From assembly GCA_018296165.2 (NCBI GenBank), contig JACKQL020000003.1:620001-684000 (forward strand): a stretch of DNA of 64,000 bases, written 5' to 3'. Shown in pieces: positions 31,733 through 62,009 of this stretch. Within the stretch, counting starts at the first letter, position 1; every line of letters starts with the position of its first letter. The position numbers and the translations under genes were made by a program. The notes under the pieces were generated by a model. It did not search any database. It was not told where the DNA came from and saw only the letters and a list, made by a program, of their open reading frames with translations. This DNA is from Termitomyces sp. T153. Lineage: Eukaryota; Basidiomycota; Agaricomycetes; Agaricales; Lyophyllaceae.

Positions 31733-32850
31733 CACTTCAGGAAATGTAGCGTGTTTCCTGAGAAAAAGGTGTCAGAAATATGTTTTTCAATTTCTGACAC
31801 CTTTTTCTCAAGAAACATGCTAAATTTTGTGTCAGAAAATTTCAATAAATATATCAAATATTCTCTTAATGTTTCTTTCATGGAATGATAAATTTTTCCG
31901 TGTTTTTTCCAAAGAAACAATCTTCAAAATATTTGAAATGTTCTCGATAATTTTCTTAAGAAACACGTGATATGTTTTAGCACGTGTTTCTTAAAAAACC
32001 TTTGTCCTGTTCTTAGTTTGTATCTCGAGAAATACTCTGTATTCTTCTCGAGAAACACGTGTCAGCATAATGTATGATATTTCTCAAGAAACATGCAATA
32101 AAAAAATGTAATAATATTATATAGAAACAATATACAGAAACATGTGTTGCGTTGCTCAGCGCGCAACCATCGATTCGCTCATCAAGACGCTTAATACGTA
32201 GTACTGAGTCGGTAACATAGTGTACAAAATCATAGACTTCCAAGTCTCCAAGAAACAGATGAACAACAGCTGAAGTCAAGAAAAATGAGGGCTAAATCAG
32301 CAGGACAGACAGGGCATCGACTTACAAGGAAAATCACCAAAATCAATCTGATCTACAAGCCTCTCAAATTTGAATTCGCCGGCCGTGGACAGCGCGTGGA
32401 ATGCTATATGGTCGGTAATGAGCAGATCGAGATTTTGTGTGGCCCAAGCACTGCGCAACTATCTGGGATAGCGTCATTGTGCATGTCTGGTTGACTCTTG
32501 ATTGGTTGGACGGCGTCGTCGAGGGGGGTTCGTCAACAATGATGAGTTCCTGTGTGTGGTTGAGGATTGGTTGGTCGTCATTGCGCTCCAGTTTGATGAC
32601 ACAAGACAGAGACTTGCGCGCCTGAAGCTTGTTAATTCTGTGTAGTCATACAAAAATCTCAACACTGACCTGTGACAGATGGATGGAAATGGTGGACCCT
32701 ATGTAGATGTTATCATACAGGATCTCAAAATTAGGCATTGTGGTCAGCTCTGTGCTGGTGTATTTGAGCTGAAAGATTGGCATTGTGATGGAATTATGAG
32801 AAAGAATGTGCATTTGTGATCATTTGGCTCCCTAACTCTAGATTAGATTT
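31733..32850. repeat. Left terminal inverted repeat (about 1.1 kb)
   Basis: Matches 60,907-62,006 in inverted orientation over its whole length. Next to the tip are a hairpin (GGTGTCAGAAAT / ATTTCTGACACC, about 31,768-31,802) and a series of palindromic boxes of the form TTCTYRAGAAACAYGTG, for example 31,958-31,969 with 31,981-31,992, and near 31,810, 32,048 and 32,085. Such subterminal repeats bind transposase accessory protein in plant CACTA elements. A short ORF in the distal part (32,285-32,494; MRAKSAGQTGHRLTRKITKI) is kept in both TIRs (minus strand 61,268-61,477), but its reality is uncertain. Confidence 0.88.
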
Positions 32851-32921
32851 GTGCTGAGGAGTATGATGAGACAGATCCCGAACAAAATGTAGCTCTCACA
32901 CTGTGTAGCCATTAGAGGACC

Positions 32922-33700
32922 ATGCAATACAGTGTTACACCATTGCCTTTGAAGAAGACAGGTTCAGCAATCAAATCTCTATCCCAAAACCTACGTCGTG
33001 CATCCGTACGTGTGGTCAACTTGGCATCCACTGGGTTGGAGAGTCAACTCCATCTCGAGGATGAGGAGGAACAGGCCACTGACAAGAACCCAATCCCTGA
33101 TCTTACAAAGGCTTTACCTCTTCGTGGTTGGACGCTAGGGTTTCTTGGGACAGACAGCAAACTTTGACTGGCTCTCTTCAATTTTCTTGTGTACCCATAT
33201 GTTATGCTTGTGTAATATGTTCACCTTGGACTGATTTTCATGTTCACAGGTGGACTGAACCTATCATTCTTGTGCTGATTATCATTAATGCTGTCATCTT
33301 AACCATACAAGCTGCCCTTCCTTTGACTCTCTCTACCTCTGATGGCACTTCCATCCCACCTTGTATCAAAGGATACTTCCATTCCTGGGAGGATTACACT
33401 CTATTTGTATTATTTGTTATATTTACGTGAGTTCTGCCTCCTCCACTGTTATGTTCTCTCATCAAAGACATCATGTTAGATTAGAAGCCTTTGCTTGCAT
33501 ATGTGTTTCCGGGTTCCTATTTGATCCTGAGGTCTCTATTGGCTCTTTCTTTCGTTCACCATTCCAATGCAAATCCAATCATTTTCTGCCTGCTCCCTTT
33601 GCTGGATCCACTACAACTCTTGGTCACTCTGGCTCTCTCTCCCAAGCTGCTCTCAATGGGAGTACCTCCATCTCGAAGTCTGGTGCCTCTTGTTGAGATG
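32922..33700 (+). pseudogene. CCH1: Captured 5' fragment of the Cch1 voltage-gated calcium channel gene
   Basis: N-terminal cytoplasmic part and first membrane segments of the fungal high-affinity calcium channel alpha subunit. VTPLPLKKTGSAIKSLSQNL then RRASVRVVNLASTGLESQL and LPLRGWTLGFLGTDSKL end at a TGA (33,165-33,167, arginine expected). Then LALFNFLV, an intron (33,191-33,249), WTEPIILVLIIINAVILTIQ (membrane segment), KGYFHSWEDYTLFVLFVIFT, a second intron (33,427-33,479), and LEAFACICVSGFLFDPEVSI. The coding sense is lost near 33,690. Introns are present, so genomic DNA and not a cDNA was captured. Only about 250 of some 2,000 residues remain, so it cannot make a channel. Confidence 0.83.
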
Positions 33701-33937
33701 GCTAAAGTCCTCACTGACGCCAACCTCTGTGCCAAAGGGCTCGATGAGCTGTGGTGTGAACTTTGGGTGGCATTTGATTGACACAGGGTCGACGATGCTG
33801 ACCAATTTCCAAACCCAGACTGGTTGTGTGACTGGGCCGTCCCTGGTGTTCTTGACAGGGATCCTTTTGCCCTTCTTGTTTGTTTTGAATACTTTCGAAC
33901 TGTCTACTAACCTATCAGCATGTGTCTTTATGATCTC

Positions 33938-34327
33938 CTAGGTGCCCCATGAGGTATTGGAGGATGATTTTCTTGAGGAATCTGTGAGAAGTCTCAGTTT
34001 GGGAGTGTAGATAGAAGAGAAGGATTTTGCATACGCTTTAGACCGGACCAGGTGCTCTGGGTTTGGAGGACCAGGTGGTTGTTCCCTCTTCTTACCCTTT
34101 ATTCTTGGGGCAGGCATGGGAGGATACAGCTTGTTTGCCCTTGTATGGAGATTGTAAAACTCGGGCGAGGGAGTGTGTTGGAGGCTGAGTTTGTAGAGTT
34201 CGTCAGTGGTCATGCTAAGGGGACTGTGGAGAGGACTCTCTTTGTTGGTGAGAATGTCACGGACAATGGCACAAGCACACAAAAACAATTCACTGTCAAC
34301 AAGCAAGGCACTATAAACACCCAACAC
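33938..34327 (-). CDS. Transposon-linked hypothetical ORF fragment
   Basis: Open frame of 129 residues (PLSMTTDELYKLSLQHTPSP, then RANKLYPPMPAPRIKGKKRE). It has no domain that I can name, but its style (short Pro/Arg-rich cargo protein) resembles hypothetical proteins carried by Tnp2 elements of basidiomycetes. It is probably a partial cargo gene. Adjacent to the CCH1 fragment. Confidence 0.3.
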   Translation of the reverse strand: MLGVYSALLVDSELFLCACAIVRDILTNKESPLHSPLSMTTDELYKLSLQHTPSPEFYNLHTRANKLYPPMPAPRIKGKKREQPPGPPNPEHLVRSKAYAKSFSSIYTPKLRLLTDSSRKSSSNTSWGT

Positions 34328-34423
34328 AAGACTGTAATATACAAAAGAAGGTATATCATCTAATAACGAAGCATCAGATCAAACCTGAAGTAGTCACTGG
34401 GAGTACTCACTAAAACCCTTCAT

Positions 34424-36343
34424 GTGAAGATGCTTGACCATGAGTTCTGCAATGGTTGCCAATGTTTTGGTGACCTGTGCTTGTGGTAAATTGAGAAACA
34501 GAAAAGAATTAAAAGCTTAAATTAAGAAACTTATGCAAAACAACAAAAGGAACAATCTTTCACCACAGATTACATTGCACAATTCTCAATGTTCGATACA
34601 ATTAACTAGTTTTTCCCTCCCTTGTTCCTTTTATCAGCCTGTGGTATATGAGAAAACTGAAGAAATATAAACAAAAAGAGAACTGACCTTCCAGCAATCA
34701 TGCCTGTCATAGATCCCCTCTTCCCCATCAATCTCCCTAATCACCTTCACACTCCAAGAGACCCAGACACACTTGATCCAGTCAATACATTTGTCCTCCT
34801 TTACTTGACCAAAGCATTACTCACCGATGGCAAGGCGTTTGACAAATATCCCATCGCCTCAAGTTCCCTTCAAAAGTGTGCCCCCCAACGCTTCTCCCAC
34901 AAATGAGCCACAAACTTTGCAGCATGAACGTCGTTGGCAGATCAAATGCACACATTGGTGTTGTGCTGGATAGAGGCCTAGAATTGGAATGAAAGATACT
35001 CAAAGCAAAAGACCATACACAAATCCATTGGCTCTTCTCTAGCTTGAGGACAGAGTACCCTTTGAGTCAAGACTTGCTTGGGCGAAGGACAGGGCGGCAC
35101 ATTGGGATCTTGAAGGACTTGGTGTGCCTTGGCATATTGATGGTGTAGACGATGCTAGAGAAGTGTTAAGTAAGTCAAAAGAAGGAAATAGAACAACTTA
35201 CTTGTCAGAGATGGTAGTTCGAGTGAAGGAGACGGTTGAGAAACCAGATGCCTTAAAAATGACAGAGCAATGGGGTCTTCTGAAGAATTAGAACTTGGAA
35301 TATTACCCCAGAGCTCAGACAATCATAAGAGTGAGTGAGTTTGGGTGAACTCAGGTGTCATGAGTAAGGGATAAAGCTTGGGTGAACCCAGAGCTCATTA
35401 ATGGTGGTATTCAACACACAGAAGAGACTGTCTTGTTCCCAAGGCACCTTACAGGTGTACATCAAGCCCCATGCCTTGAAAGTCACTCGGCAAAGGAGGA
35501 AATTTGAGAGTTGGGGTTCCCAAACCCAAAACTTGAGAGGGAGTGTGAGTGAGTTTAGATGTATCCAGAACTCGTGAGGGAAGGATAGAGCTTGGGGGAA
35601 CCAAGTTCAACTCCAGTCCTACTTCAATGGAGTTTGATGATTATGTAATTCACCCATGGAAAACACAATGAGCGTTGAGCGAGTGGGTGTGATCTGTGAG
35701 CAATATATTAGAAAAAATAGATCTTTGAGGTAGCATCATGGTGATACAGACGCCTTAGTCCATCAAGGCTATGCCATAGAGAGATCCTTAAGATCACTCA
35801 GCACAACAGGAGTTTGAGTTGAGCCAAGAACTAAAACCAGGTGATCACAAGTTTGGGTTGGACCCAGAACTTCATAGGCAGTGGTAGAGTTTGGATGAAC
35901 TCAGAAGTGATACAGAATTCAACGAGCTTGGGTGAACCCAGAACTCATGAGGGAGGGACAGAGCTTGGGTGAACCCAGAGCTCATGGTTGTTTTCAACAA
36001 GTCAAAGTCTGACTTGACTGGTGTTTGATTCTTATATAACCCATCATGGGAATGCAATCAGCAATAAGCAGAATCATAGATAAGATTATTAAGATTATAT
36101 ATGAGCGCGTCGAGTGACAAAGACTACATTTTTGTAGGGACAACGGTCGAGTATCAGAAATGATAAATTTGAACAAAATTGATTTATTTGAGAGCCAAAC
36201 TATAATAGTAATGAGTTCTGTAACTGACAGACAGTAAGTGCAAACAAGACTACTATCATCTGCCAGACTATATGTATCTAGACTTGGCACCACAAGTTAT
36301 TTAGATCTGATCAACATAAAGAGACTAGATCAAAATGAGTGAG
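34424..36343. repeat. Left internal inverted arm (about 1.9 kb)
   Basis: Reverse-complement match to 54,378-56,277 end to end (GTGAAGATGCTTGACC at the outer end; CAAAATGAGTGAG at the inner end). It carries one copy of a cargo gene (34,700-35,291) and an array of AGCTTGGGTGAACCCAGAGC-type boxes (about 35,330-35,990). The inner end is followed directly by the transposase gene's 3' end. Confidence 0.85.
34700..35291 (+). pseudogene. Cargo hypothetical gene, left-arm copy
   Basis: Starts MPVIDPLFPINLPNHLHTPR and includes DPVNTFVLLYLTKALLTDGK. It continues in other frames, through small lesions, to VGRSNAHIGVVLDRGLELE, then HTQIHWLFSS, then FESRLAWAKDRAAHWDLEGL and EQWGLLKN. This resembles a hypothetical protein often seen inside basidiomycete Tnp2 elements. 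The right-arm copy at 55,410-56,001 has better preserved frames. Function unknown; broken here. Confidence 0.55.
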
Positions 36344-39300
36344 TTTATTCATCTTGAGCTCAGAGAAAATACAAACACGTCTCAGTGATATAACCACCCA
36401 GTTGTCCTCCCATTTCAACCTTGCTGCATGAGCTTCAATGTCTGAAATCATCACGGCTCTAAGCTGTGGGTCCAATTCAGTACTCCAAATGCTTGCTCCC
36501 AATTCCTGATATTTTGAGTAAAGGTCAAAAGAGAATGAAGTTGAGGGCTTCAGATGATACCCAACAATCCATGTGCCATGAAGAGTTTGATCGTCCCTCA
36601 CTACAGGAAACCCAAGAATGTTCCCAATCATAAATGGGGCAGAGACGTTTTGCAAGAAGACAAAGCTGTTGCCCTTATGCTTCTCACAAGAGGTGTATGA
36701 CAAGCCGAAGTGATGGATTTGAGATTTAATGACCGCTTTTGGAGGAATTTTGTGATATGGCTTGGCATGTTCAATTGCCAGACCATATCCTTCGGGAAGT
36801 GGGGTTAATTTCCCTTTTAGAGTATTGTCATCATCATTGTTTACTTCAGTCCTGTCGAACAAAATGAGGGTAAAAGCATTGTCCTCTTCAGTTGCCAGGA
36901 TCCCACAAGTCTGTGGTCAAACGAGAGTCTGAAACATGGACTCGCATTCTTTGATGATGTTGGGGCAGGCCTGTTTAAGGAAGAGCCCTCTTACACTAGA
37001 TGTTCAATGCCAAGGGCGCACAATTGTCTCTTCATATTCACCTGAACTGCATGTTATTAATCAAAGCCAAATGAATACGTTGGTTTTACCTTTCTTATAA
37101 TTTGTTGACATTCACTGCAATTGCCCAATTGCATGCTCAAAAGGAAAGGCCCACCAGCCTGAAGCAGGACCAAATAATTCGAGAAAATCAGGAATGTGGA
37201 AGGCCATGTGATGATTGGGGACACATTTATAGAATGGGAAGAGGCGAGCAAGCTCTTTTCGATACTTAGTCATGAGCTCCAAATAACGCACTCTATGATT
37301 CATGCTAGTCACTCGAGAAGTTGCCACTTGGACAGCCAAAGAAAGCAGCATTGTCAGATGCAGGAGATTTTTCTTTTGTTCATCACCATCCCACCATAAG
37401 TGGGTCAAAGATATGGGAAGATTTACACAGCCAACCATCCGCCATTGATCCGCTTTGAGCTTGGGCCCACTTGATAAGAGAGTTGTTGGGACCAAAGTCA
37501 CCCAGGAAGGTCTGATAATATCTTTGAAGTCAGCCCAGATAGTCTCCATTTCATCTTCTGAGAAGATTTCCCCATGAAATAATGTGACATTGTGTTCTGG
37601 TTGCTGAAGTCGCTGGTAGAACAATCTAAGTTAACGTTGTTCATACACATTGACCGATTTATACATACCCAGAGAAGGATTGCACGAGCATAATCCTCTC
37701 TAGTCCCTTTATCTCCCAGCGATAGTTGAATACCTAATCCTGTTGCCATACAAACCAGGGCTTCTTTGCACAAATTTCTCCATCTCTTGACTGCTTTATC
37801 AAAAGCTGGGCCTTCAGCGCTGAAATTGATGGGCCGTTGAAGCCACTGGCAAAATGTATATACATCATTGAAAACCTTCAGCTCAGTCTCTGAATCCGGC
37901 TTGGGATTGGCTTCATTGTAGTGAAAATTCACCACAGTCAACTTTGCTGGAGCTCCCTTCTTGGTCTTGCACTTCTTATTGTCGGGGTCATAACCAAGGA
38001 TGTTCTGGAAGTGCTCTTTAATCAAACTGAGAAAGAGATTATGCATAACATTGACAACAAGGTATGTTGATGCCTTGTAGTATGGAAGCCGGAGAAGCTC
38101 AGTTCATTGCAAACCCAATTTGCCAACAAGAGCAGATGCCTCTTCTGGAGAAGAAGCCGAGAAGTAGTTCTCAGCCAAGTCTCAACATTCTTCATTAGTT
38201 TGGAATTTCCAGCATTTAACATCACAATTGCTGAGTTTGTGAGATGTCCTGTTGCACCAGCAGTGGGAACAAAAGTACTTGTGATGGATTGAAGTAAAGC
38301 CTCCAACTTTTTGAACCATCATGAGATCACAAATTATGAGAATGATGGCACACAGAATCAGTCGACTATAAGGGAAGTCGGTGGTCTGGCTAAAGGCAAC
38401 ACCTGACCAGAGATCCAAGAATTCATTGATGATGGGGCGCAAGTATGGGTTCATTCCATCCAGTTGGGCCTCAGGTTCCTTGGGGCCAGGAATGATGTGG
38501 ATAAACATGTTCTCTGGTCTATACTGTTCCTCGATAAGTAAATTCAAGCATGCAATGCATATCATGCCAATAGAGATCTTCTTTCTGGCTTGTTTGTTGC
38601 CCAAAGGGTTGAAGAAATCCACACTGAGTGAGAAAAGGTAACAACCAGCATTTTCACCTCCATAGATGCTAAAGTGAGATTTTCCATCGGGGCCTTTGAA
38701 ATTTTGGATAGCAGAACCTTGAAAGATGTCCCTTAGTATTCCATCAGAAGGCATTTCCATCTGCTTCCAAGCCTGATCCATCTTTTTTTCATATGATTCT
38801 CATGAGAGTAACCCGGCAAACCAATCTTTGAAGTCAAATACAACGTAAGGCCGGATGGGAATGTAGATGTTCAGTCAGCAGGTTCCTATTGACTTAGGAT
38901 GAATGAGCAATTCTTTGCAGAGAACACCATGCCGAATGGCATCACACTGTAAGGGGTAGACAGGTACTTTGCTGTAATCACCTGCTTTAACATTGGGGAA
39001 TTTGGGCCTGTAAATCGCATGACACTTTGGACAGGAAGCGTAAACCAAGGACTTTCTCTCTATGCGAAGGGGTTTCATAGTGGTGTGAATATTGACAGGA
39101 AATTTATCAAGGATGCCAGTGATGGGACACGGAATAGATGGGAGAAAGGAAAAAGCATCGCTTATGATTTTACTGCACATTTGGAATATCCAGACAGTTC
39201 CCCTATGAGGAAGGCATAGGACAACATGGCAGATGGTGATCATGAAGACCACAAGTTGGAGGAAAGGTACCACTTTGCTAAAGCTGAGGAAGAAATGGTC

Positions 39301-39996
39301 ACCTGAGGAAGAAAGAATCAGAGAACAATTCATGCACATTGCCATTGGTGACTCACTCGTGTCAAATTGACTGTGTGTGAGTGCCAGTGGCTCTGCAATT
39401 TGTGTGTCTAGCGCATTTGTCCATGACTCTGTTGTCTCATTGAGAAAGTGCTGAACATCCTGCCGTAGGGTGTCAACAATGCTGTGCATGTGCACAACGG
39501 CAGGAGTCTTGACTCTTTCAATGGTATGTAAACACGTAGTTTGCTCGTCTAAAGTTTGCTTGATCGATTCTAGCGCTATAAGCTTGTCCACAAACATACA
39601 GTTGCCTGCGTGAAACAGAGCCAAACCAATCACTTGCACCTTGGTGCACAAAGATTCAAGTACACCCTCAATCTTGTTGAGACCAGCAACGAGTTTGCTC
39701 ACTTTGTTAATTGGTAAATTTGGCTTATCACTGGTTACAGGTGGAAACGTTGCCAGATGCGCCGCAATATTGCTCAGCAAAAGATTGTTCATAGCAATTG
39801 CTATCTCAGCTTTGTGAGCCTTCAAGGCTTGTGCTTTGTATGCTAAGGCACAATCACCTAATCTCTGAGCCTTGTCCTCCTTTTCATGATTTTGAAGTGT
39901 TCTGGCATCAACCAAGGTGCCACAGGTGCCATCTGGAAGCTGATTCAGATGGCATTTGAATTTTGTGCAAGTGCAGATTTTGTCTTTTGGCAACAT
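36311..39996 (-). pseudogene. Tnp2-type CACTA transposase, five in-frame TGA stops
   Basis: Transposase of the Tnp2/Transposase_21 family. The start at 39,996 gives MLPKDKICTCTKFKCHLNQL with a cysteine cluster at the N-terminus. A coiled region, a hydrophobic stretch near 39,200, a zinc-ribbon-like YASCPKCHAIYRPKFP (near 39,030), and VVFDFKDWFAGLLS follow. The catalytic-region block includes DGILRDIFQGSAIQNFKGPD, FSLSVDFFNPLGNKQARKK, HIIPGPKEPEAQLDGMNPYL and FCSHCWCNRTSH. Later come LQRPINFSAEGPAFDKAVKR, an intron near 37,610-37,669, RMVGCVNLPISLTHLWWDGD and a C-terminal domain to 36,311. In-frame TGAs sit at 38,875-38,877, 38,800-38,802, 38,182-38,184, 38,104-38,106 and 37,112-37,114, where Arg or Trp is expected. 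The frame is otherwise continuous. Confidence 0.87.
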
Positions 39997-40503
39997 CGAA
40001 GAGGTAGTAAAAGGGAGGGAGGCAATCATAAGTAGCCAAGAGATGAAATCAATATGCAGACTAAGCAAGATAACATCCAATGGACACATCAATTAGTATG
40101 ACAAAGGTTTGCCATACAATGCTCTGTAGAAACAATTGAGAACCTCCTGCACCCTGTGCCCTGTCCCCTTCAAAATTATAGCTTAGTCGGCACATTTTAT
40201 GCAGATGAAAGGAAGGGCTGTAACTGCAGCCTGGGCCTGCCTCCAAGAAAATCTATGTAAGGAGTCGAAATCAAACATGTGCCAAGCGGGGATAACGATA
40301 AGCATACCGATTGTTATTAGACTCTTTTAGGCAGTCATTTTCTTTGTCTCCAGAAAGACAAAGAGTTTCGCAAGTTCCTGTACATGTGCAGGGCATGATA
40401 CATGTGATAACAAAGAACAGATACTCATTAATATTCACATGATGAGAAGTTTGGTACCTCATACAACTTCATTTTCAAATTTTTCAAAGGTAACAAAATA
40501 CAA

Positions 40504-42436
40504 TCAGATATTGAGATCAACAACGTGAAACGGCACTTCTACATCATCCACCTTGGCAGACTCTTCCTCTGATAACTCCGGCTTTGTGGTAGTAAAACTC
40601 TCCGCCATTGGGCAAGTAACTGTAACAAATCAAGTGATTGTGGAGACCTCTTTGGCCTGTGCACTAGTGATGGTCCAGATTGTAGTGTAAGATTAGGCAC
40701 TGACCGCCTGGATAACATACAAGAGGGTGACTGGACTCGTGCTTTGCTCTGCAAAAGCATCTGGAGCCGCATGATGGTGGGTGGCAAGATCTTGAGCGTT
40801 TGACTTGAAAAGCTGCGCGGTTAGTGCTCTGACACTAGGGATAGGCTAGGGAGTGCAAATATAGTACACAAAAAGATATCGAGGGAGGGGCAAGTAAACA
40901 AACATTGACAAAGGAGACAGCCATCGTTGAAAACAGTACCTGCAATAACATAGCAGCATAGAGCACACAGTAAGCAGCTTGTTTCACAATAGAGAACCAC
41001 TTTGCATAAACCACTGTGAAGCCCATTGCAAGTGGTTCATTGGCACTTTCAAAGGGCTAGATGACAAGTTGGTGAATGCAGACTTGATAGTGAATCAGAA
41101 CTACGCACCTATTTCACCCACATATACACCTCAAAACCTCCCAAACTGGAGCCACCTACGATCATATCATACCCATCTTCATGTTTGGCAACTGCAATGA
41201 CTTGCATGAGTCCTAAGATACCATGAGCACAAATCATCAACCAGGGTTATATAACTCACCAGATCCAGACAACTTTTGCAATATTTCCCGAGTCACCATG
41301 TCTACCACATAGACCGTTCCATGATCGCTGACACACACGATAATTTTGCCTTCTTCTGCAAATACTCCTTGAATGATTCTATGCTGGGTAGACGTAACAC
41401 CTGGTATTGCTTCCACTGGAGTACTAGGAAATCGGTGGAGTTGAAAGTGGCCTTGAGTGAGATTATGAGTGAACAAGAGGTCTTCGCCAGGCAAAAGGGT
41501 GGCATGACCTCTGGAAGAGGCAGTCAATAATGCGGAGGACAACAGCAAGAAAAAGCACACATTGCACTCATTAAATGCTTTTGCCACAGCTGGTTGGAGG
41601 TTTGAGCATTGATGCAAAGGCTGTAAAGGGTAAACTTGGATTCAACATTGACCGTTTAGATACACCTACATTTCGCCATTTTCAATCTTGGTGAGCAGTA
41701 TATTTTGGCTACCAGCACCAAAGAACTTGAGGCTTGCGGGGATGGCATCAGCCACAGGTGGAATGACCCACAATTCCGTCATGTCAACTGCCAGGGGTTA
41801 GACAAAGACAGGGTGACATAACTGCCAATACTTACCACCTGCACTGATGCTAAACAATTTGATTGTACCATTATGACTAGCAACCACAAGTTGCTGGTTA
41901 GCATCATCACAAGCCTGGGTGGTGATGCTATTGTTGAACTCAAAGATATTGTAGACCTTGGAATACCTCTGAGAGAACCACTGGGACCATGATCAGGGAG
42001 GGACAACATTTCAACTCAAGATGACGTACAGAGGTTGAATTTGCACAGGGAATAAAGCAGATTGATCCTCAAATGGTCCCAACACATATAGATTCACCCT
42101 TGTTACCAGCAGCATTTATAGTGAGACAAGTCAGAGCGGTGACTTTGCCCCACATCTTATCATAGGGGGTTTGTAGGGAGGAGAGATCCTTTGTGGAATA
42201 GACATGGACATGTCCATCATCGCCTGAGAAATGATCAATTTGTGTAGTCAAGGCAAATTGAAAGACCTACCTCCTATTAAGACCATACTCAAATCTTTAG
42301 TGAAGGTCGCAGCACTAACTGAGCCTTTGCTGCCTCTGAGGTCACCCCGAAGCTTGTATTCAGAAGTCTGGGAAGGGGCAGAGGTCAAAAGGAGGGTAGA
42401 AAATGAGAAACTGATGCTGACAGATGCGAGAGCCAT
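40504..42436 (-). CDS. WD40-repeat-like cargo protein (multi-exon, boundaries approximate)
   Basis: Starts at 42,436 (MALASVSISFSFSTLLLTSA). Exon 1 (42,271-42,436) joins exon 2 (42,098-42,223) as SMVLIGGDDGHVHVYSTKDL, a WD40 blade. Further blades are QQLVVASHNGTIKLFSISAG (about 41,840-41,900), TELWVIPPVADAIPASLKFF (about 41,730), ARGHATLLPGEDLLFTHNL-like sequence and KIIVCVSDHGTVYVVDMVTR (about 41,290-41,350), and MQVIAVAKHEDGYDMIVGGS (about 41,150-41,210). A hydrophobic stretch (YCVLYAAMLLQVLFSTMAVS, about 40,920-40,980) and an acidic tail ending VPFHVVDLNI (40,504) may be the last exons. Some junctions could not be phased, so it may be partly decayed. WD40 proteins are common passengers of fungal Tnp2 elements. 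Confidence 0.5.
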
Positions 42437-42588
42437 CGTATTGAACTGTGGATATAGCGTGCAAGAGTGAAGTGGATAATCCCTTGTCAAAAATTGGGCA
42501 CAATTATGTAACAAAAAAAAACAAAGGTCTTTGTTGTTGCTTTGAGGCTCAAAGCACGTTTGTAAATCAATAAAATTATATATAATGC

Positions 42589-43290: not shown

Positions 43291-43309
43291 GAACAGAAGG
43301 GGAATAAGC

Positions 43310-48705: not shown

Positions 48706-48899
48706 AAGTCACATCTCGAGGGTATCAGATTCCTACTATTGTTACATGTATATATAAAGCATATGCGAACCTGTATTTTATATTCTAATCCATTTATATC
48801 TGTCAAGGGAAACAGAACGTTAAGTTTTTGGGGATATAGAGTCGACCCTGATGTGCTCTGCCTACAAAACTAGTGGTTTCCAAATCAACTCACATGAAA
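48706..48899. other. Short AT-rich spacer
   Basis: AT-rich sequence after the previous cargo gene; nothing recognised. Confidence 0.3.
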
Positions 48900-49400: not shown

Positions 49401-49656
49401 GATGAGCGTGTTGCAGGTTTGACAAGGAAACAAGCGATATTTCCGTCTGAGAGAGTAAGTGAGCAGATTTTTATGTGGTCATGTCCTTTGTTTTCATTTT
49501 GTCCTTTGTGGTCATTTTGACAAAGGAGCGGACTTTAAAATTTCTAACATATGTTTTCTTTGAAATTCAACCTTTCAGCCTTTGTTCCATATCAGTTCCC
49601 CATTATCATCCTCACCACCTGTGGAAGTCAGGCAATACCTACATAGTCCAGATACA
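49401..49656. other. Spacer before the coiled-coil cargo gene
   Basis: AT-rich, no repeat or ORF of note; presumed promoter of the following gene. Confidence 0.3.
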
Positions 49657-52600
49657 ATGAATGGTGACTTTGAGGTATGTGAAGTCCCATATTGTTTCTT
49701 TGTAATTTCTGACATTGCATTGTTTTCTAGGCTATCATCACCATTGGAAACGACCCAGTGCATCACAAACCTTTGAATAGACAAGGAGCAACTATGATGT
49801 CTGTAGAAACCCAAGAGGAAGCTCTGTTCCATAAACATTCCCTGTTACCCAAACATATTATAACAACAGTCAACAAGCAAAACAAAGAAGGGGTTGGTCA
49901 TGTCAATGATGCTCCTTCCAAGAAATGTCAATGAGGAAATGAAGAATTAACCAGCTGCCATGAACTAGTTCTATATACAGTAGATCACTTGTTCATCCAG
50001 CCATCCTTGTTTGACTTGTCTCTTGTAGGGCTTGGACAAGAACTCAAGTCAAGATGACAATGACACTGCTTCACTGAAGCTCCAGATTCTCTCTCTGGAG
50101 CAGTGGGTGAGCTCTGTGCAAGTCATTGAAGAATCCATACTGATCGACTTGCTAGCTTGCCAAGAAGATAGCTGAATTGAATGAAACACAGAAATGTCTT
50201 GCCAATGTATGTCATTCTCACATAAATTTGTCAGAATACCCATGACACCATCCACACCTATATCAAAAGTACCAACACCGAACTTGAGCACACCCTCAAC
50301 ACTCAATGCTCAGACTTGCAATGCAAGATGATAGAATTGGAAGACAGTGCAGAACAAGTTGCGTGGCTTCAAGCTTACGCTGATTGTCACCATCACAATG
50401 AGATTGCCAAGAAGAAAAACATTAGATTTCACATGCAAAGAGCCCTAGTAGCAATGACTATTCTGGCACAGACTTTCACCGCCGAGTGCAACTCTTCTTC
50501 AAAGCAACTAACCATCCTTCAAGCCAAGCAGCAACGCCAAAGAAATGCTGAAGCAGCATTGTTAGAGGAATATCAGGTGGGTTGTAATACTCATGCTTCT
50601 ACCCTTTTAAAAATATATCAAGTCTCTTTAGGACCAGATGGAAAGCAGCAAGCAACAGCTACTACTATTGCAAGGAGAGTGCAATAGGCTTCGATTGGAT
50701 TTGAAACAAATCAAGGGCAATCTCAACAACACTACAAATAATAAAGAGATTCTTGTTGCTACCGTTGGACATCTGAAGATTCAATTGTTGACTCTCCAGG
50801 AAACTTATCAAAATACCTTGGAACAACTGGGGTCAGTCAAAAGAGAGTGAAAGAGTCTTTGAGAGTGTATGGCTGTGGACCAGAAAAAAGTCAATGAGAA
50901 AATTGTGAGTGCTTATCAAGATCAACAAATGAATTATCATTCTAACTGCAAACAATTTCTCAGGCTGAGCTAGATGCCGCCAAAATTGTCATATCTGACT
51001 TTCAGGCGAAGTTGGAAGCCCAGTCTGAAGAGTCAACAGTGGGTCACTATTCATCACCTCCTTTCGCTCCAGTCATTCTTTGTCTGCTTTTACTCTCTGC
51101 TTACTATCCAATACTTAGGTGATGATTCAAAGACTTCAGAGTCAATTGCAGATGGCTGAGGAAGAGCAACAGATCCTGGAAATTCAAATATCTGTTAAAG
51201 AGGGGCTTCTCCAACAGAACACAGTAAGTGTTTGCCCATCGACTTCTCATCATTTTTGCTCTGACACTTTCATCAGGCTGAGTTAGCAGCGTCAAAAGAC
51301 GTACAATCAGAAATGAGCATGCAGTCTGCAAAGGCTTCTGTCAGTAACTGATTCATGTGTTTTTCTCTTCTCCGTTGATTCCTCATTGTTAGGCCACTAT
51401 TCAAGATCTTCAGAGCCAATTGACAAGTCTTCAGAACACCCATCAAAACACTCTGAGTTGACACCAGGAGGAATTATTGACTGAATGGAAGAAGGTTCAA
51501 GAGAATGCAGTAAGCCTCTGGCATACCATTTCTCATCATTCCAGTCAACTAAAACACCCTTTTTCTCAGGTTAAGCTGGCAGCTTTGGAGTCTGTAGAGT
51601 CAGATACCAGTATGTGGTCTGCAATAGAGGCATCAGTTGGTCACTTCCTGCTTTCTTTTGTTCTTACTTATTTTTCAATGTTAGGTGCTTGAGGATCAAT
51701 TGTCAGCTCTTCAAGAGGCACACCAAGCTACACAAATCGAACGAGATAATCTTCAAGTTCAATGTGATCAAGCACTGAAACAGATGCAAGAGGCACGTTT
51801 ACAACTTGATCAAGCGCAAAAGTTGATTGGCAAGCTCAGAGTTGTATGTCTTTCATTTTTTTTCACTTCCTCAGGTTTCCATTACCTTTGTTGCAGGAAA
51901 AGAGTACTCATGAAGATGCTGTGACCAAGCTTAAACAGAGGATTTCTGCTTTGGATGCTTTGGAAGGGAAGGTATCTGCACATCCAGCACAATCAAATGA
52001 AACAACACAAGCTGAGCCCTCTGCTGCCAAACATCCTTCAGATGAGGATGTTGTACTCAATGTTGCAGACCAAAATGGATATGAACCTGACACAGAATCT
52101 GAAGATGACAGCGACTGAATGATTATCAACATAGATGACATCCCCAGTACCACCAACTTGAGGCCTGCTTGTTACGAAGGGCAGCAACAAACCATCTCCA
52201 ACTTTGCTGATGGAAGACCTTATCGCACTGGAAAACAGAAAGAAAATTTGCCTGACCCATCAATGCCAGTTGACTACCAAGTAAATTCATACTATCTTCG
52301 ATTATCAAATATCTGACTTGTTCATTTCTCAAGCTGTTTGGAATGAGACCCCATTCTTTGCCATTCAGATCATGTGCATCATCTCAATCAGTTGCCTCCC
52401 ATACTTGTGGGACTGTGGGAACTTCTCTTGCCAATGATTCAATGCGTTCACCTCACATTTTAAGCGAGATTCCTGATGACCATCTACTGCTTCAAAACCA
52501 AATGATTTGCTTGAGTCCTGCTTGGCAAGCACAGCAATCACAGACCTCTCGGAAGTTTTCAACACTGTCCCACGTGTCGCCCAATCCTTGTTCTGAGAGT

Positions 52601-53840
52601 GTTCACTTGCCACCTACGATTGTGACTCCTTTGAAAAAGTCCAAGCAACGCAACTGTGATGATTTCGTATGGATGGACAGGCTTCCTAGAACTGGTCAAT
52701 TGAATTACCAGCCCACTTTGTTGCCCAAGATTGATGAAGAACTGGTTCTCACCCCTTCTGCTCGCCTTCACAACTCTTTTCAATCGTCTACCACTCCTCA
52801 AATGGCAAAGAGTTCAAGACTTCGAGAGACCAGAGAGGATGGCAAGAGCACTTCTTCAAATGATGCAACTCAGCCGTCTGTCCATTTTGCTAGGAGACAC
52901 CAAGGTGGGGCTGCTAGTGATAACAATGGTGGAAGTGACGTCAAAGACAAAGAAGACAATAACAAAGACAACAAAGACAACAACAACGGTGTTGTCTATG
53001 ACAGTGATGACATCGGACCTACTCTTAGAAGACTAAAGGATGAAATCTTGGCCTTACGCAGCGATTTTGATGTAACCATGCAGCGTTTCAGTGAGCTTGA
53101 ACGTAGAAAAGCATTGGTGCAGTGGACATTCCCTTTCAAAGTACCGCAAGGCCGAGAAGTACGAACTGAACAGCACAACAATACCATGCACGTTGTCCAG
53201 AAAGAGATGTGGTCCCTCCTTGGAATGAAGAAGGATAGGAAATTCCCAAATATTGTCTCAGAAAGACCAGAGCTACTGGCTGCACCCCAGGACATGTTCT
53301 TGTACACATGACAGCCAAGTTTCAAGCTATGAGTCACCGTAAGCAAGTTAGGATGAGACAGAAACAAGTATGTGTATCCTTTCTCCATCTTTTCATTGGC
53401 TAACTAAGACATTCAAGCTATACCTTGCAAGGAGCGGTCATTGTCAAGACCAAGTTGAATATGATAATAATCTGGCTTGAAACGAGATGCTTCTCATGGT
53501 TAGATCTCTAGGAGTGGATGGCCAGAGTTCAGATGAGTCTGATGGTGGAGAATATAGAGTCAAAATTCAAACTTGGCACGATCCACACATTACCAGACTG
53601 CTTCGCTACATAGACTGAAGTCATCCTACCACTAACATCCTTGGAAATCGACTCCCTGGTAGTGCTCCTTGTATCCGTCAAATCAGCGAATGCAAAGAGA
53701 CTACATGTCTTTACAGTGACATTCCTGCGAAGCTTCCCGCAAACTTCTATGACAAGGTGTGGTTCAAGACTCTGGTTCCTGGATTGCAAACCAAGTTGGA
53801 CCCTCACCCAGTCCTTAACTTACCTCACTTGCAGAACTAG
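49657..53840 (+). pseudogene. Coiled-coil cargo protein with repeated exon modules
   Basis: Probable start MNGDFE at 49,657, then an intron and ITIGNDPVHHKPLNRQGATM. From 50,040 to 52,080 nearly everything is predicted coiled coil: KQLTILQAKQQRQRNAEAAL, SSKQQLLLLQGECNRLRLDL, LQSQLQMAEEEQQILEIQIS, LEDQLSALQEAHQATQIERD. The exons are short and separated by introns at about 51,038-51,119, 51,223-51,277, 51,340-51,392, 51,510-51,570, 51,637-51,684 and 51,845-51,897. After an acidic NGYEPDTESEDDSD and a stop (52,116-52,118), a Ser/Pro-rich part, an Asp/Asn/Lys repeat (52,935-52,990), and SDDIGPTLRRLKDEILALRS follow. The final segment (53,486-53,837) has DESDGGEYRVKIQTW and INFYD-like ANFYDKVWFKTLVPGL, a tail seen in many Tnp2-element cargo proteins. 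Several in-frame stops. Confidence 0.6.
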
Positions 53841-53865
53841 TTGATATGATTGATACATGTAGTCC

Positions 53866-54377
53866 GGCAGATGATAGTAGTCTTGTTTGCACTTACTGTC
53901 TGTCAGTTACATAACTCATTACTATTATAGTTTGGCTCTCAAATAAATCAATCTTATTCACATTTATACTATTATAGTTTGGCTCTCAAATAAATCAATC
54001 TTGTTCACATTTATCATTTCTGATACTCGACCATTGTCCTTACAAAAATGTAGTCTTTGTCACTTGATGCGCTCATATATAATCTTAATAATCTTATCTA
54101 TGGTTCTACTTATTGCTGATCATGTTCTCATGATGGGTTATGTAAGAATCAAACACCAGTCAAGTCAGACTTTGACTTGTTGAAAACAACCATGAGCTCT
54201 GGGTTCACCCAAGCTCTGTCCCTCCCTCACAAGTTCTGGGTTCACCCAAGCTCGTTGAATTCTGTATCACTTCTGAGTTCATCCAAACTCTACCACTTCC
54301 TCTGAAGTTCTGGGTCCAACCCAAACTCGCTCACTTGGTTCTATTTTTCTATTTTCTCTGAGCTCACAATCAACACA
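53866..54377. repeat. Partial direct copy of the right-arm inner half
   Basis: Repeats the start of the right arm (compare 54,436-54,860). Shared sequence includes ATACATGTAGTCCGGC, TACTGTCTGTCAGTTACA, CTCAAATAAATCAAT (with one internal duplication at 53,930-54,005) and the GGGTTCACCCAAGCTC boxes at 54,195-54,260. It shows local tandem duplication at the inner edge of the arm. Confidence 0.7.
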
Positions 54378-56277
54378 CTCACTCATTTTGATCTAGTCTC
54401 TTTATGTTGATCAGATCTAAATAACTTGCAGTGCCAAGTCTAGATACATGTAGTCCGGCGGATAATAATAGTCTTGCTTACACTTACTGTCTGTCAGTTA
54501 CAGATGTCATTTACTATTATAGTTTGGCTCTCAAATGAATCAATTCTGTTTACATATATCATATCTGCAAAATGTAGTCTTTGTCACTCGACGCGCTCAT
54601 ATATAATCTTAATGATCTTATCTATGATTCTGCTTATTGCTGATTGCATTCCCATGATGGGTTATGTAAGAATCAAACACCAGTCAAGTCAGACTTTGAC
54701 TTGTTGAAAACAACCATGAGCTCTGGGTTCACCCAAGCTCTGTCCCTCCCTCATGAGTTCTGGGTTCACCCAAGCTCGTTGAATTCTGTATCACTTCTGA
54801 GTTCATCCAAACTCTACCACTGCCTGTGAAGTTTGGGGTCCAACCCAAACTTGTGATCACCTGGTTTTAGTTCTTGGCTCAACTCAAACTCCTGTTGTGC
54901 TGAGTGATCTTAAGGATCTCTCTATGGCATAGCCTTGATGGACTAAGGCGTCTGTATCACCATGATGCTACCTCAAAGATCTATTTTTTCCAATATATTG
55001 CTCACAGATCACACCCACTCACTCAACGCTCATCATGTTTTCCATGGGTGAATTACATAATCATCAAACTCCATTAAAGTAGGACTGGAGTTGAACTTGG
55101 TTCCCCCAAGCTCTATCCTTCCCTCACAAGTTCTGGATACATCCAAACTCACTCACACTCCCTCTCAAGTTTTGGGTTTGGGAACCCCAACTCTCAAATT
55201 TCCTCCTTTGCCGAGTGACTTTCAAGGCATGGGGCTTGATGTACACCTGTAAGGTGCCTTGGGAACAAGACAGTCTCTTCTGTGTGTTGAATACCACCAT
55301 TAATGAGCTCTGGGTTCACCCAAGCTTTATCCCTTACTCATGACATCTGAGTTCACCCAAACTCACTCACTCTTATGATTGTCTGAGCTCTGAAGTAATA
55401 TTCCAAGTTCTAATTCTTCAGAAGACCCCATTGCTCTGTCATATTTAAGGCATCTGGTTCCTCAACCGTCTCCTTCACTCGAACCACCATCTCTGACAAG
55501 TAAGTTGTTCTATTTCCTTCTTTTGACTTACTTAACACTTCTCTAGCATTGTCTACACCGTCAATATGCCAAGGCACACCAAGTCCTTCAAGATCCCGAT
55601 GTGCCACCCTGTCCTTCACCCAAGCAAGTCTCGACTCAAAGGGTACCCCATCCTCGAGCTGGAGAAGAGCCAATGGATTTGCGTATGGTCTTTTGCTTTG
55701 AGTATCTTTCGATTCAATTCTAGGCCTCTATCCAGCACAACACCAATGTGTGCATTTGATCTGCCAACAATGTTCACGCTGCAAAGTTTGTGGCTCATTT
55801 GTGGAAGAAGCGTCAGGGGGCGCACTTTCGAAGGGAACTCGAGGCAATGGGATATTTGTCGAATGCCTTGCCATCGGTGAGTAATGCTTTGGTCAAGTAA
55901 AGGGGGACAAATGTATTGACTGGATCAAGTGTGTCTGGGTCTCTCGGAGTGTGAAGGTGATTAGGGAGATTGATGGGGAGGAGGGGATCTATGACAAGCA
56001 TGATTGCTGGAAGGTCAGTTCTCTTTTCATTTATATTTCTTTAGTTTTCTCATATACTACAGGCTGATAAAAGGAACAAGGGAGGGAAAAACTAGTTAAT
56101 TGTATTGAACATCAACAATCATGCAATGTAATCTGTGGTGAAAGATTGTTCCTTTCATTGTTTTGCATAAGTTTATTAATCTAAGCTTTTGATTCTTTTC
56201 TGTTTCTCAATTCACCACAAGCGCAGGTCACCAAAACATTGGCAACCATTGCAGAACTCATGGTCAAGCATCTTCAC
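54378..56277. repeat. Right internal inverted arm (about 1.9 kb)
   Basis: Inverted partner of 34,424-36,343. Box array at about 54,715-54,860 and 55,100-55,380 (GAGCTCTGGGTTCACCCAAG and variants). It carries the minus-strand cargo gene copy at 55,410-56,001. The outer end joins a 26-bp stub of the element's terminal sequence. Confidence 0.85.
55410..56001 (-). CDS. Cargo hypothetical gene, right-arm copy
   Basis: Better preserved counterpart of 34,700-35,291. MLVIDPLLPINLPNHLHTPR (56,001) leads to DKYPIASSSLRKCAP. After a frame change or intron, MSHKLCSVNIVGRSNAHIGV, VLDRGLELNRKILKAKDHTQ, IHWLFSSSRMGYPLSRDLLG, and then LEDGVPFESRLAWVKDRVAH ... EQWGLLKN (stop at 55,410). Resembles a hypothetical protein of basidiomycete Tnp2 elements. 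It overlaps phases, so an intron or small lesions are present. Confidence 0.5.
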
Positions 56278-56278
56278 A

Positions 56279-56304
56279 GGAAACATGCTACATTTCCTGA
56301 AGTG
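56279..56304. repeat. Orphan stub of the element's terminal sequence
   Basis: Reads AGGAAACATGCTACATTTCC then TGAAGTG. This equals the last 26 bases of the giant element (61,981-62,006) in the same orientation. It abuts the outer end of the right internal arm, and no partner is present at the left arm. It suggests that the arm once ended in a functional terminus. Confidence 0.8.
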
Positions 56305-56579
56305 TGTGTGCCACCTCCATTCATCGCTTCACTTGAAGTTAGATCTTCTGTTACCCTGATATCTACAGTCGCTGGCTGGCTTGTAGCACATCCAACACTC
56401 TTTCGGAACTGAAAATGTCAGTGAACATGTCCTCTTCCTTGTTGTACATGACACTGACCTCGCCAACATTTGAGCCCAGCCAAAAGCACTGCATCTTTGT
56501 CAACTACAAGCAAAAGTGAACTTTCTCCTCTGGATTCCTTCAGCCTTGTCAACGCTGTACATGATCTCAGCTAGGTCAT
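56305..56579. other. Spacer
   Basis: No repeat or gene recognised; contains weak open frames only. Confidence 0.25.
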
Positions 56580-58437
56580 TGCAAATATTCAAGACATGTT
56601 CCTGGGGCAGATTTCTCCTCTTGCTGCCCCTCCATCATACCGACCACCAGTTATTGAAACTCCCTCAACATCCCAAGAACCAAAGATCTCGATGAATACC
56701 ATGAAATCTATACCTGATCTAGAACCAAAACTTGATACCTGATTTGAGGCTACTCCTGCTGTACCAAGACTGACCACGCACGTCCCCGCAACTTTGTCCA
56801 TCACCAAACCTACTGAGATGTTCACCCCTCCATGAGGTGGGAACGCATGTCCAGCAAGCATGTTTGCGGCGAGCCCGAGCCACCTCGCAATCCACATTAC
56901 ATCCACCACTGTACCTACCCCCAAATCTCAAAGATCTGGCACTACACCTAACAAGCTCGAGTACTTCCTGCCTACTCTTGAGCCAAAAGTCTCCGAATTC
57001 GGCAAAGGACATGAGATTTTGCACTCCTTGTCCCATACTCAAGTCTTGCTAGAGCAAGGTACAAGTACTGGGTCATTCTCGGCCATTGTACATAAGAAGG
57101 TGACAGAGCTACTGACGACAATGACTTCCTTGTACTTAGATGTTTATGCAAAGGTGTCAGAGACACCGAAGAAAGTCCAGCGAGCCAGAGCTCGTGATGA
57201 GCCCTGGGTATGGAGAGCTGGCTGAGTTGTTGCATGAGGCAGCGTTACTAGAATTCTCATTGGAGCATGGAGAGTTGCCTGGTGAGGGTGCAAAGAAGGC
57301 AGGTGTTGAGCTGGAGAAGAAGGAAAGACAAGGGGAAATGAAGGGGGGAGAGGAAAGGGAGAAGCAGCCAGTTGTCAAGGCCGAGGAAGAAAAGAAGAAG
57401 CATGCTACCATGGCTAAGGCTCATGCGAAGCAGGAAGCGTTAGCAAGCGAGTCAAAAAGTGTCTTCTGCAACCCACTCCTCAGGAGCAAGTCGGTGCAGA
57501 AACAGGACGAGTCGGTGGACAGTGAGGCCCACAAAGAGAAATCTGTGACCCTCTCCTTTTGCCCACTGCCTGAACTGCCTTTCTTTCAAAGCACATCCAC
57601 CCCCTTCCTTAGCAATTACTCCAATACCAGAAAAAGAGGTTGTGCCAGCTGATGCCACGGCACAGGATGCAGAGATCAAGTCTCCTGTACAGACATCCCC
57701 TAGATCTTTGTGGTATTTTACTAGCCTCAAGCATTTTGCAAGTTCCTTGAAAACCTCACTGATGAGTAGTTCCCAACCTCAAGACAGCATGTCTGCGTCA
57801 TCAGAAATGTCAGAGGATTGGTCAGTCATTCCTATGCCAATGGAGAATAGTGGTGAAATTGAGAACAAGAATGGACTTTTCAATGGTCCAGGCATTGGGT
57901 GGCCAGTGTTGTCTCCCAAAAAGAGTTCAGGTGTTGGAAGATCAGCATTGTTCATGGATAGGATTTTCAACTGAAATCAAAAGACATCAAAGATGTTGAC
58001 AGTGTTGTCTGCCAGTGATGCAAATAGTGCGTATGAGGCCATCGGTAAATGCTACTCTCTCTCATTGTTACGTCAATGCTGACCTAAGACCTTCAGATCA
58101 ACTTGCTAAGTCAAAAGCAGGAAAATCTGCAGCATCACTCATCCCACTGCTCAACCCCATGTCATTCACACTTGACATCCCCATCATCCAGGAGAACAAT
58201 CAGCTTCTGCCCTCTCCGCCAGAACTCCTCTCACCAAAGTGGTCTGCATCCCTCTATGTCCCATCCACATCTCAATTTCCACCTATCTTTTCTGCACATC
58301 CCACGAGTTCATTTTATACTTCTATTCCTCAAATTTCGGAAAATTACACATCTTCTCGTGCATTAGATTCTGTAGGCAAGGACAAACTCATGAGCCCAGA
58401 TTTCACTTCTCCAACAGGGCCCCACAGCAAAGCATAG
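56580..58437 (+). pseudogene. Degenerate Ser/Pro-rich cargo coding region
   Basis: A chain of plus-strand frames with stops and shifts: MFLGQISPLAAPPSYRPPVI, then PTPKSQRSGTTPNKLEYFLP (56,920-56,970), YLDVYAKVSETPKKVQRARA, then a frame change to ELAELLHEAALLEFSLEHGE, a Lys/Glu-rich helix (57,290-57,440), SSEMSEDWSVIPMPMENSGE (57,800-57,860), and a proline/serine-rich end (LPSPPELLSPKWSASLYVPS, 58,200-58,260). Charged-helix and disordered segments alternate. No domain recognised. Probably one decayed cargo gene. Confidence 0.4.
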
Positions 58438-58744
58438 ACATGGAGTACCAACCCAGTGGTCGAATGCAAATACCACAAATGAACAGCTGTCAAGCCCAGA
58501 TGCTGTGCTTTTCTTGGTGCAGCCGACAAGTCCTGTATATATGCCACATGCTACAGCACTCACCATGCGCTCTCAAGAGACCATCACTGACTCCCCTACG
58601 CGTAACTTTAGCTCTCTGCTCCAGAGAAGTTCTATTGAATGCCAGGATAGTCATATTTGGGTGCATCGTTGTCCAAACTGGTACTTTGATTGAGATTGTG
58701 GCTGTCTTGATTTTAGAGAGTACGTATAATCGTCATCGACGGAC

Positions 58745-60845
<2,101 letters not shown>

Positions 60846-60906
60846 TGAGAGAAGTGCTCAGAGTAAGTAAGAAACTGGCCAGGATTTACCAAGGCTCGAG
60901 GCAAAT

Positions 60907-62006
60907 AAATCTAATCTAGAATTAGGGTAGCCAAATGATCACAAATGCATGCACATTCTTTCTTATAACCCCATCACAATGCCAATCTTTCAGCTCAAAT
61001 ACACCAGCACAGAGCTGACCACAATGCCTAATTTTGAGATCCTGTATAATAACATCTGCCTAGGGTCCACCATTTCCATCCATCTGTCACAGGTCAGTGT
61101 TGAGATTTTTGTATGACTACACAGAATTAACAAGCTTCAGGCACGTGAGTCTCTGTCTTGTGTCGTCAAACTGGAGCACAATGACAACCAACTGATCCTC
61201 AACCACACACAGGAACTCATTGTTGTTGACAAACCCCTCTCAACGACACTGTCCAACCAATCAAGAGTTAACCAGACATGCACAATGACACTGTCCCAGG
61301 TAGTTGCGCAGTGCTTGGGCTGCACAAAATCTTGATCTGCTCGTTACCGACCATATAGCATTCCACGCGCTGTCCACGGCCAGTGAATTCAAATTTGAGA
61401 GGCTTGTAGATCAGATTGATTTTGGTGATTTTTCTTGTAAGTTGATGCCCTGTCTGTCCTGCTGATTTAGCCCTCATTTTTCTTGACTTCAGCTGTTGTT
61501 CATCTGTTTCTTGGAGACTTGGAAGTCTATGATTTTGTACACTATGTTACCGACTCAGTACTATGTATTAAGCATCTTGATGAGCAATGCAACACGTGTT
61601 TCTGTATATTGTTTCTATATAATATTATTACATTTTTCTATTGCATGTTTTTTGAGAAATATCATATGTTATGCTGACATGTGTTTCTTAAGAAGAATAC
61701 AGAGTATTTCTTGAGATACAAACTAAGAACAGGACAAAGGTTTTTTGAGAAACATGTGCTAAAACATATCATGTGTTTCTCAAGAAAATCATTGAGAACA
61801 TTTCAAATATTTTGAGGATTGTTTCTTCAGAAAAAACACGGAAAAATTTATCATTCTACAAAAGAAACATTAAGAGAATATTTGATATATTTATTGAAAT
61901 TTTCTGACACAAAATTTAGCATGTTTCTTGAGAGAAAGGTGTCAGAAATTGAAAAACATATTTCTGACACCTTTTTCTCAGGAAACATGCTACATTTCCT
62001 GAAGTG
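60907..62006. repeat. Right terminal inverted repeat (about 1.1 kb)
   Basis: Inverted match to 31,733-32,850. Contains the same hairpin and AAGAAACA-type palindromes (about 61,675-61,790). Several CACGTG sites of the left TIR appear as CATGTG here, the change expected from CpG decay. Ends CCTGAAGTG at 62,006, followed by the CAT duplication. Confidence 0.88.
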
Positions 62007-62009
62007 CAT

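Follow-up and report, generated by a model that had tools for sequence, protein, structure and literature searches.

A 30.3-kb CACTA/EnSpm-type element with Pack-CACTA-like capture of host-gene sequence in Termitomyces sp. T153

Results

A stretch of 64,000 nucleotides from Termitomyces sp. T153 (the window; contig C3, bases 620001-684000) contains, at 31733-62006, a complete CACTA/EnSpm-type element of 30.3 kb whose ends are exact to the base. With a probability of roughly 85%, we regard this element as one copy of a large family, likely moved by cut-and-paste through a Tnp2 transposase, that gained a fragment of the host AROM gene, likely via template switching during gap repair. Searches were run against the organism's own genome (72.4 Mb, 307 contigs).

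Ends and insertion site

The outer tips, at 31733 and 62006, are inverted copies beginning CACTTCAGGAAATGTAGC, with 1 mismatch in the first 72 bases. The first-pass annotation of this DNA had described a tip repeat of about 50 bases; it was right that the copies are inverted and that the tips differ by one mismatch, but the repeat is about 1.1 kb long. Aligning the two ends confirmed this: the left terminal inverted repeat (31733-32850, plus strand) and the right one (60907-62006, minus strand) are 92.2% identical over 1,123 alignment columns. The 59 substitutions between them comprise 58 transitions and 1 transversion. Among the transitions, 25 fall in CpG and 23 in CpA context, scored in the copy that keeps the C, and the left repeat holds 35 CpGs versus 12 in the right. 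Since divergence of the ends is largely of the CpG-loss type, the identity percentage is a poor clock.

The element is flanked by the target-site duplication CAT at 31730-31732 and 62007-62009. We joined both flanks with one CAT into a 201-bp query, which crosses the junction uninterrupted at dispersed repeats elsewhere in the genome, among them C15:82731-82916 (96% identity over query positions 1-186) and C49:332065 (95% over positions 1-191). The element thus lies within a dispersed repeat, and because other copies of that repeat are contiguous with a single CAT, the pre-insertion site is visible in paralogous form. The tip reading and these single-CAT sites bear out the annotation's exact ends with CAT on both sides. 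No noncoding RNA or tRNA was found in the window at the thresholds used.

A family of large and small copies

A search for other copies with the same ends, which the annotation had proposed, was successful. The genome contains 83 exact occurrences of the 14-base tip and none of its reversed control; when up to 3 mismatches are allowed, an 18-base tip is found 167 times and its control 24 times. We read 19 paired tips, belonging to 9 large copies (15.4, 22.6, 27.2, 30.3, 31.3, 35.9, 37.5, 42.0, and 44.0 kb) and 10 small ones of about 0.9 kb (864 to 1,009 bp). Two further large copies, C48 and C72, have one outer end read each and stand outside this count. The 3-bp flanks are identical in 16/19 pairs, while mismatched pairings of flanks agree in 6/342. 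Two other pairs, C29 and the small L034, have 4-bp duplications (CATA, CGAC), and one, C16b, has none. Similarity stops at the tips: across 19 large-copy ends (the right end of C16c, one of two identical ends, being omitted), mean pairwise identity per 10-base bin is 24 to 28% outside the tip and 90 to 98% inside it. The outcome that the annotation had named as refuting its view, similarity ending well away from these ends, thus did not occur.

The right 9,064 bp of C16b, of which 1.5 kb is flank, matches C16c at 100%, so this end appears to be either a recent duplication or an assembly artifact. Such identical 9-kb ends are what one would cite for the view that the family as a whole is a product of chance or misassembly. 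That view is next to negligible, given 83 tips versus no control occurrence, the sharp identity drop at 19 ends, and the prevalence of matching duplications.

The small elements consist of the outermost 430 to 475 bp or so of the end repeat, copied head to head, which suggests that the ends alone likely suffice for mobilization. C78b (15.4 kb) and C120 (22.6 kb), two large copies read from end to end, retain little or no Tnp2 and yet have target duplications; they likely moved in trans or decayed afterwards. C78b contains the WD40-like gene described below with the counterparts of the window's ORFs near 42.6 and 52 kb, and C120 contains the counterpart of the ORF near 52 kb.

The element core

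The core is bounded by subterminal inverted repeats at 34419-36375 and 54346-56282, which are 94% identical in reversed orientation. Within it lies a Tnp2 transposase gene (36311-40092, minus strand) that is likely degenerate. The gene was identified by a Transposase_21 (PF02992) match above cutoff at 38182-38799 on the minus strand (E = 6.1e-9) and by Agaricomycete Tnp2 homologues, the best being a Termitomyces sp. T112 protein with 52% identity over 72% of the query. With the CAC..GTG ends and the CAT duplication, this match (E of 6e-9) upholds the annotation's assignment to CACTA/EnSpm elements with 3-bp duplications. The Tnp2 segment that it placed inside is present too, but looks degenerate. 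Its splice model omitted upstream exons, the exon tested has an open frame of 201 amino acids in the window versus 633 in C16b, and in the D-x-M-H motif (described in PMC1636069) the window has a substitution at the conserved acidic residue, which C15 and C72 retain.

Next to Tnp2 is a gene for a WD40-like protein (41115-42436, minus strand; spliced model). All seven homologues of the protein are named Termitomyces, six at 77 to 91% identity and one at 40%. We asked how often the two genes occur together. The downstream exon of Tnp2 has 39 genome matches, grouped by hand into 32 places, and the exons of the WD40-like gene have 106 matches in 29 places. A WD40-like match lies within 15 kb in 24/32 Tnp2 places, and the converse holds for 23/29; as an arithmetic yardstick, and not a shuffled control, an even distribution of 29 places over 72.4 Mb would put one of them within 15 kb of any chosen point in about 1% of cases. 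These pairs include diverged loci in which Tnp2 identity is 33 to 41%. Because the WD40-like gene recurs beside Tnp2 even there, we place it in the core and reject the idea that it is captured cargo. We propose the protein as a candidate transposition partner.

Three more inner features, to which no function is assigned, lie on the plus strand: an ORF at 42589-43282 (gene model), which recurs in C78b; one or more ORFs at 45979-48479 (a model at 45979-47849 plus a frame at 47850-48479), of which a start fragment recurs in C78b; and an ORF at 52210-53311 (gene model), which recurs in C78b and C120. The feature at 46 to 48 kb has relatives in the Lyophyllaceae: the 6/9 matches that carry an organism name are from Termitomyces, Lyophyllum, and Arthromyces. 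With whole or partial recurrence in C78b or C120, all three look like core sequence. The multiple cargo genes that the annotation had seen in this region are therefore mostly unsupported, since the WD40-like gene and these ORFs recur in the family.

A captured AROM fragment and its host gene

At 58737-60699 (plus strand), domain matches and an alignment to the host gene delimit a captured AROM fragment that encodes 3-dehydroquinate synthase and the beginning of EPSP synthase. AROM matches occur at three loci in the genome, namely, the window, C15, and C122. Reading of the frames at C122 found a start codon preceded by further sequence on one side; on the other, the frames complete EPSP synthase and enter the following domain. 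Because its frames run on beyond the fragment in both directions, C122 is taken as the host AROM gene. The window fragment holds a 260-bp tandem duplication (58948-59207 and 59208-59467) that neither the C15 copy nor the host gene has. With one 260-bp copy set aside, host and window align without gaps over 1,703 bases, across three stretches that we read as introns by their GT..AG ends and that are retained in the window copy. This gap-free alignment across putative introns leads us to reject a processed, RNA-derived copy. Intron motif patterns picked out all three in both element copies but only one of the three in the host, whose sequence departs from these patterns at some positions.

Host and window differ at 109 positions, 82 of which are host C>T or G>A, and the window copy has lost 59 of 91 host CpGs and gained 3. 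The C15 copy gives a similar picture (89/113 differences are host C>T or G>A; 57 CpGs lost and 2 gained). A bias toward CpG loss relative to the host implies that the element copies are likely the derived ones and have been decaying as methylated DNA would.

The arm that received the fragment is also found free of the insert, in the right arm of C120 and in both arms of C78b. In C15, the AROM insert sits between two copies, about 40 bp each, of arm (acceptor) sequence; in the window one of these flank copies is missing, as by a small deletion, so that the whole duplication is seen in C15 only. By our own reading, allowing for CpG decay, the bases common to arm and host number about 4 at one junction and about 2 at the other. 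The AROM arms of the window (duplication CAT) and C15 (duplication ACA) are 93 to 94% identical, and the aligned parts of the opposite arm are 91 to 95% identical. Since these two copies share the arm and have different target duplications, an AROM-carrying unit likely moved after the capture.

The 40-bp acceptor duplication in C15 fits template switching during gap repair, and we propose the following sequence of events. Tnp2 would act on the family's tips and move copies by cut-and-paste. Repair synthesis would then leave the arm, copy the host AROM gene, and reenter the arm about 40 bp upstream. Such a return slightly upstream would explain why there are filled and empty arms, a 40-bp duplication, shared junction bases, and a missing flank in the window. 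The window copy, with its apparently degenerate Tnp2, would have been mobilized by a sister's transposase or before decay set in, and the WD40-like protein may assist transposition as a partner.

Arm modules and further captures

The left variable arm (32851-34418) is a mosaic of modules, pieces of which recur in other copies; its 32860-34415 portion has 26 matches in the genome, itself included. On the right, a module at 56468-58736 is common to many copies (29 matching pieces, itself included), and a search of the organism's own genome found no donor gene for it. Of the two captured host fragments that the annotation had claimed, the AROM fragment stands, with its parent found; the module at 56468-58736 instead recurs in many arms, and the donor search came back empty.

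We scanned 20 arms, at most 8.5 kb each, for stretches of at least 150 bp that match no arm of another element. In 8/20 arms, a stretch of this kind starts immediately internal to the end repeat, at a distance of 1,105 to 1,647 bp from the tip; this count includes the identical ends of C16b and C16c and the window, whose stretch is only 169 bp. Others start at 448 bp (one arm) or at more than 2.4 kb (several arms), and 5/20 arms contain no such stretch. The position immediately internal to the end repeat is therefore favored as a slot, though it is not the sole one.

Ten frames, picked by eye from nine arm stretches, were searched against Pfam. Six scored above the cutoff (two GH31 domains of one gene, a Cys/Met pyridoxal phosphate enzyme, ankyrin, a protein kinase, and BAR), two matched below it (a second kinase piece and MatE), and the remaining two of the ten matched no Pfam family. 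GH31 glucosidase pieces occur in C48 and C4 (presumed host on C31, 86% identity), the Cys/Met enzyme piece in C16a (C103, 76%), kinase pieces in C78a, C33, and C120 and partially at C2:1786525 (C2:79316, 79%), and BAR-domain pieces in C72, C79, and C56 (C46, 70%). The presumed hosts were identified by match and are so called because, among the matches listed, none of these loci has an adjoining tip, Tnp2, or WD40-like match; C4, C33, C56, C79, and the second C2 copy were called elements from nearby tips or matches to elements. The Cys/Met frame (L012:6401-7396) is 332 amino acids long, and its end matches an 831-amino-acid frame at C31:276827. Since it matches two different loci, it looks like a fusion of two host genes.

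Captures occur as well in copies of 27 to 44 kb with transposase sequence (the window, C15, C16a, and C78a). A broader reading would make the family an autonomous giant Pack-CACTA, in which a standing cargo slot inside the 1.1-kb ends is filled repeatedly by repair copying of host exons with their introns, a core of Tnp2 and the WD40-like gene spreads units of 15 to 44 kb, and fused host frames, the Cys/Met-enzyme/coiled-coil ORF being an example, are a side effect. We offer this scheme tentatively, as possible but somewhat short of an even chance.

An internal tip and rival origins

At 56277-56304 (minus strand) lies a 28-bp sequence identical to the outer right tip. This inner tip, in the same orientation, is present in 7/20 arms; another junction is found at that place in 6, and neither was found in 7. 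All nine inner tips read have the same 12 bases outside, allowing single changes. The inner tip appears to be a relic of an earlier end, enclosed once and then copied between arms.

The inner tip bears on how the arms came to hold host DNA. If a transposase bypassed one end and used the outer end of a neighboring element, the host DNA between would be enclosed, the old end would persist as the 28-bp inner tip, and AROM and the other pieces would simply have come along. Aberrant excision from tandem arrays has been put forward for Pack-CACTA elements (PMC13317346), and end bypass is treated in PMC8277862. A shared inner tip with a uniform outside flank is what one former end in one site should leave, and end bypass remains the natural explanation for the module that carries it, as a rival or a companion to template switching. 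As an account of the whole element we think it unlikely, although less so than the next alternative: the empty state of the AROM arm is known, and end bypass does not predict the 40-bp duplication in C15. End bypass may thus fit the module at 56468-58736 and not AROM, for which we retain template switching during gap repair.

A second possibility is that a 22-kb element inserted into a smaller one of 8 kb, the nest mimicking a single large element. The inner tip at 56304 and the inverted repeats at 34419-36375 and 54346-56282 could be taken for the ends of such an inserted element. However, a left inner tip was not found in the window. C15 and C78b do have both inner tips, but in each the sequences outside these two tips repeat each other in inverted and not in direct orientation. 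The same arrangement is also seen in copies with different target duplications, and none of the tips read belongs to an independent copy that terminates at the inner tips and has a 3-bp duplication of its own. We consider nested insertion very improbable.

Discussion

Host-fragment capture by inverted-repeat transposons is known mainly from plants. The fungal precedents that we found are one hAT case, TET/JBP genes in several transposon groups including EnSpm, and Helitrons. Here a single genome offers base-exact ends, filled and empty arms, a host donor, and sister copies, so that a capture mechanism becomes readable from sequence. The pairing of Tnp2 with a WD40-like gene also makes the product of the latter a specific candidate for a second protein of transposition in CACTA elements of Agaricomycetes.

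Canonical CACTA elements have tips reading CACTA or CACTG, and those of the present family read CACTT, not literally either one. Fungal EnSpm elements are recognized by CAC..GTG termini and 3-bp duplications (PMC12730594, Kojima 2025), and the family has CAC..GTG termini within inverted repeats, 3-bp duplications in 16/19 pairs, and a Tnp2/Transposase_21 transposase. We excluded Plavaka, which has TGT..ACA termini with 2-bp duplications or CATCA..TGATG termini with 2- or 3-bp duplications (PMC12730594), since the window's termini are CACTT..AAGTG. The KDZ elements Kyakuja and Dileera, with 7-bp or 8-bp duplications (PMC12730594), were likewise excluded by family duplications of 3 to 4 bp.

The fungal EnSpm families of PMC12730594 resemble the present one in termini, duplication, and transposase type, and some of them have captured a TET/JBP dioxygenase. 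That gene is likely useful to the element, whereas the window family carries several ordinary host-gene fragments instead, and no TET/JBP domain match was obtained in 20 element ORFs scanned (of 112 listed). Inverted ends of 1.1 kb, a WD40-like partner, and fragments of several ordinary host genes are features of the window family that the available part of PMC12730594 does not describe.

Large fungal cargo elements are discussed mainly as Starships, which resemble the window family in size class and cargo. A Starship has a tyrosine recombinase captain at one end, in contrast to the long inverted repeats, 3-bp duplications, and Tnp2 of the window family, and no tyrosine recombinase Pfam match was obtained in the 20 element ORFs scanned (of 112 listed). 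Eight Starships are reported from one basidiomycete, Tremella fuciformis (PMC13066641).

The first-pass annotation had judged the element far larger than typical CACTA elements. Large it is, but it has precedents: a soybean CACTA element reportedly measures 20.5 kb, going by the title of one study (PMC2613891), and En/Spm elements of the red alga Chondrus crispus, 16 to 20 kb with 4 to 5 ORFs (cited in PMC6431247), are likewise oversized and carry multiple ORFs. Host gene capture goes unmentioned for the latter in the available part of PMC6431247 and is present in the window family. The hAT element of Pyrenophora tritici-repentis that carries a histone H3-like gene, a transduplication claimed in PMC3538342 as the first in fungi, likewise has a host-like gene between inverted repeats. 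It is about 5.6 kb long with one such gene, whereas the present elements are CACTA elements of 15 to 44 kb with fragments of several unrelated genes.

The closest likeness is to plant Pack-CACTA and Pack-TYPE elements, in which CACTA ends surround copied host fragments that move along with them (PMC8903248, PMC13317346). A host coding fragment between CACTA ends is present here too, in the form of AROM with its parent identified. Pack-TYPE elements are defined there as nonautonomous and lack a transposase gene, whereas the window and other large copies contain Tnp2 sequence, and captures occur also in transposase-bearing copies of 27 to 44 kb. Our search of the open-access literature found no report of a fungal CACTA element capturing ordinary host-gene fragments. 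We accordingly describe the family as a new variant of a known process, that is, Pack-CACTA-like gene capture by large, transposase-bearing fungal elements.

Five contigs of the same genome (C27, C79, C99, C144, and C55) start or stop inside the family of large CACTA/EnSpm-type elements or near it. In both C27 and C79, the conserved terminal sequence, or tip, lies at position 1014 from the contig start. Its distance from the 56468 module, an arm module common to many copies (56468-58736 in the window element), marks this sequence as an inner tip, the presumed fossil of a former end. Given that contigs end in or near the element, two of them at an equal distance from a tip, the family likely either breaks the assembly or sits near chromosome ends. 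Two element ends on C16, at 416,300-426,225 and 665,000-674,873, share 100% identity over 9,064 bp, a stretch that takes in 1.5 kb of flank; either one was duplicated from the other very recently or the region is misassembled.

Inside another copy, C16a, an open frame of 332 amino acids (L012:6401-7396) combines a piece of a Cys/Met enzyme with a coiled-coil piece, the latter matching a different gene.

Outside the element, the window carries a 743-aa frame on the plus strand (13105-15336), with a Trs65 domain match above the cut-off and a TRAPPC13 match just below it; the frame probably belongs to a normal trafficking gene of the host. Two further frames, one with ankyrin (17440-18033) and one with zf-NOSIP (22350-22838), are host-like too. 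At the left edge, direct repeats of ~1.45 kb each (14-1451 and 8965-10409), ~9 kb apart and 86.6% identical, are probably the LTR pair of an ancient retroelement. A retroelement is also likely nested in copy C120, where frames at L026:5989-7844 resemble Ty3-type gag and protease.
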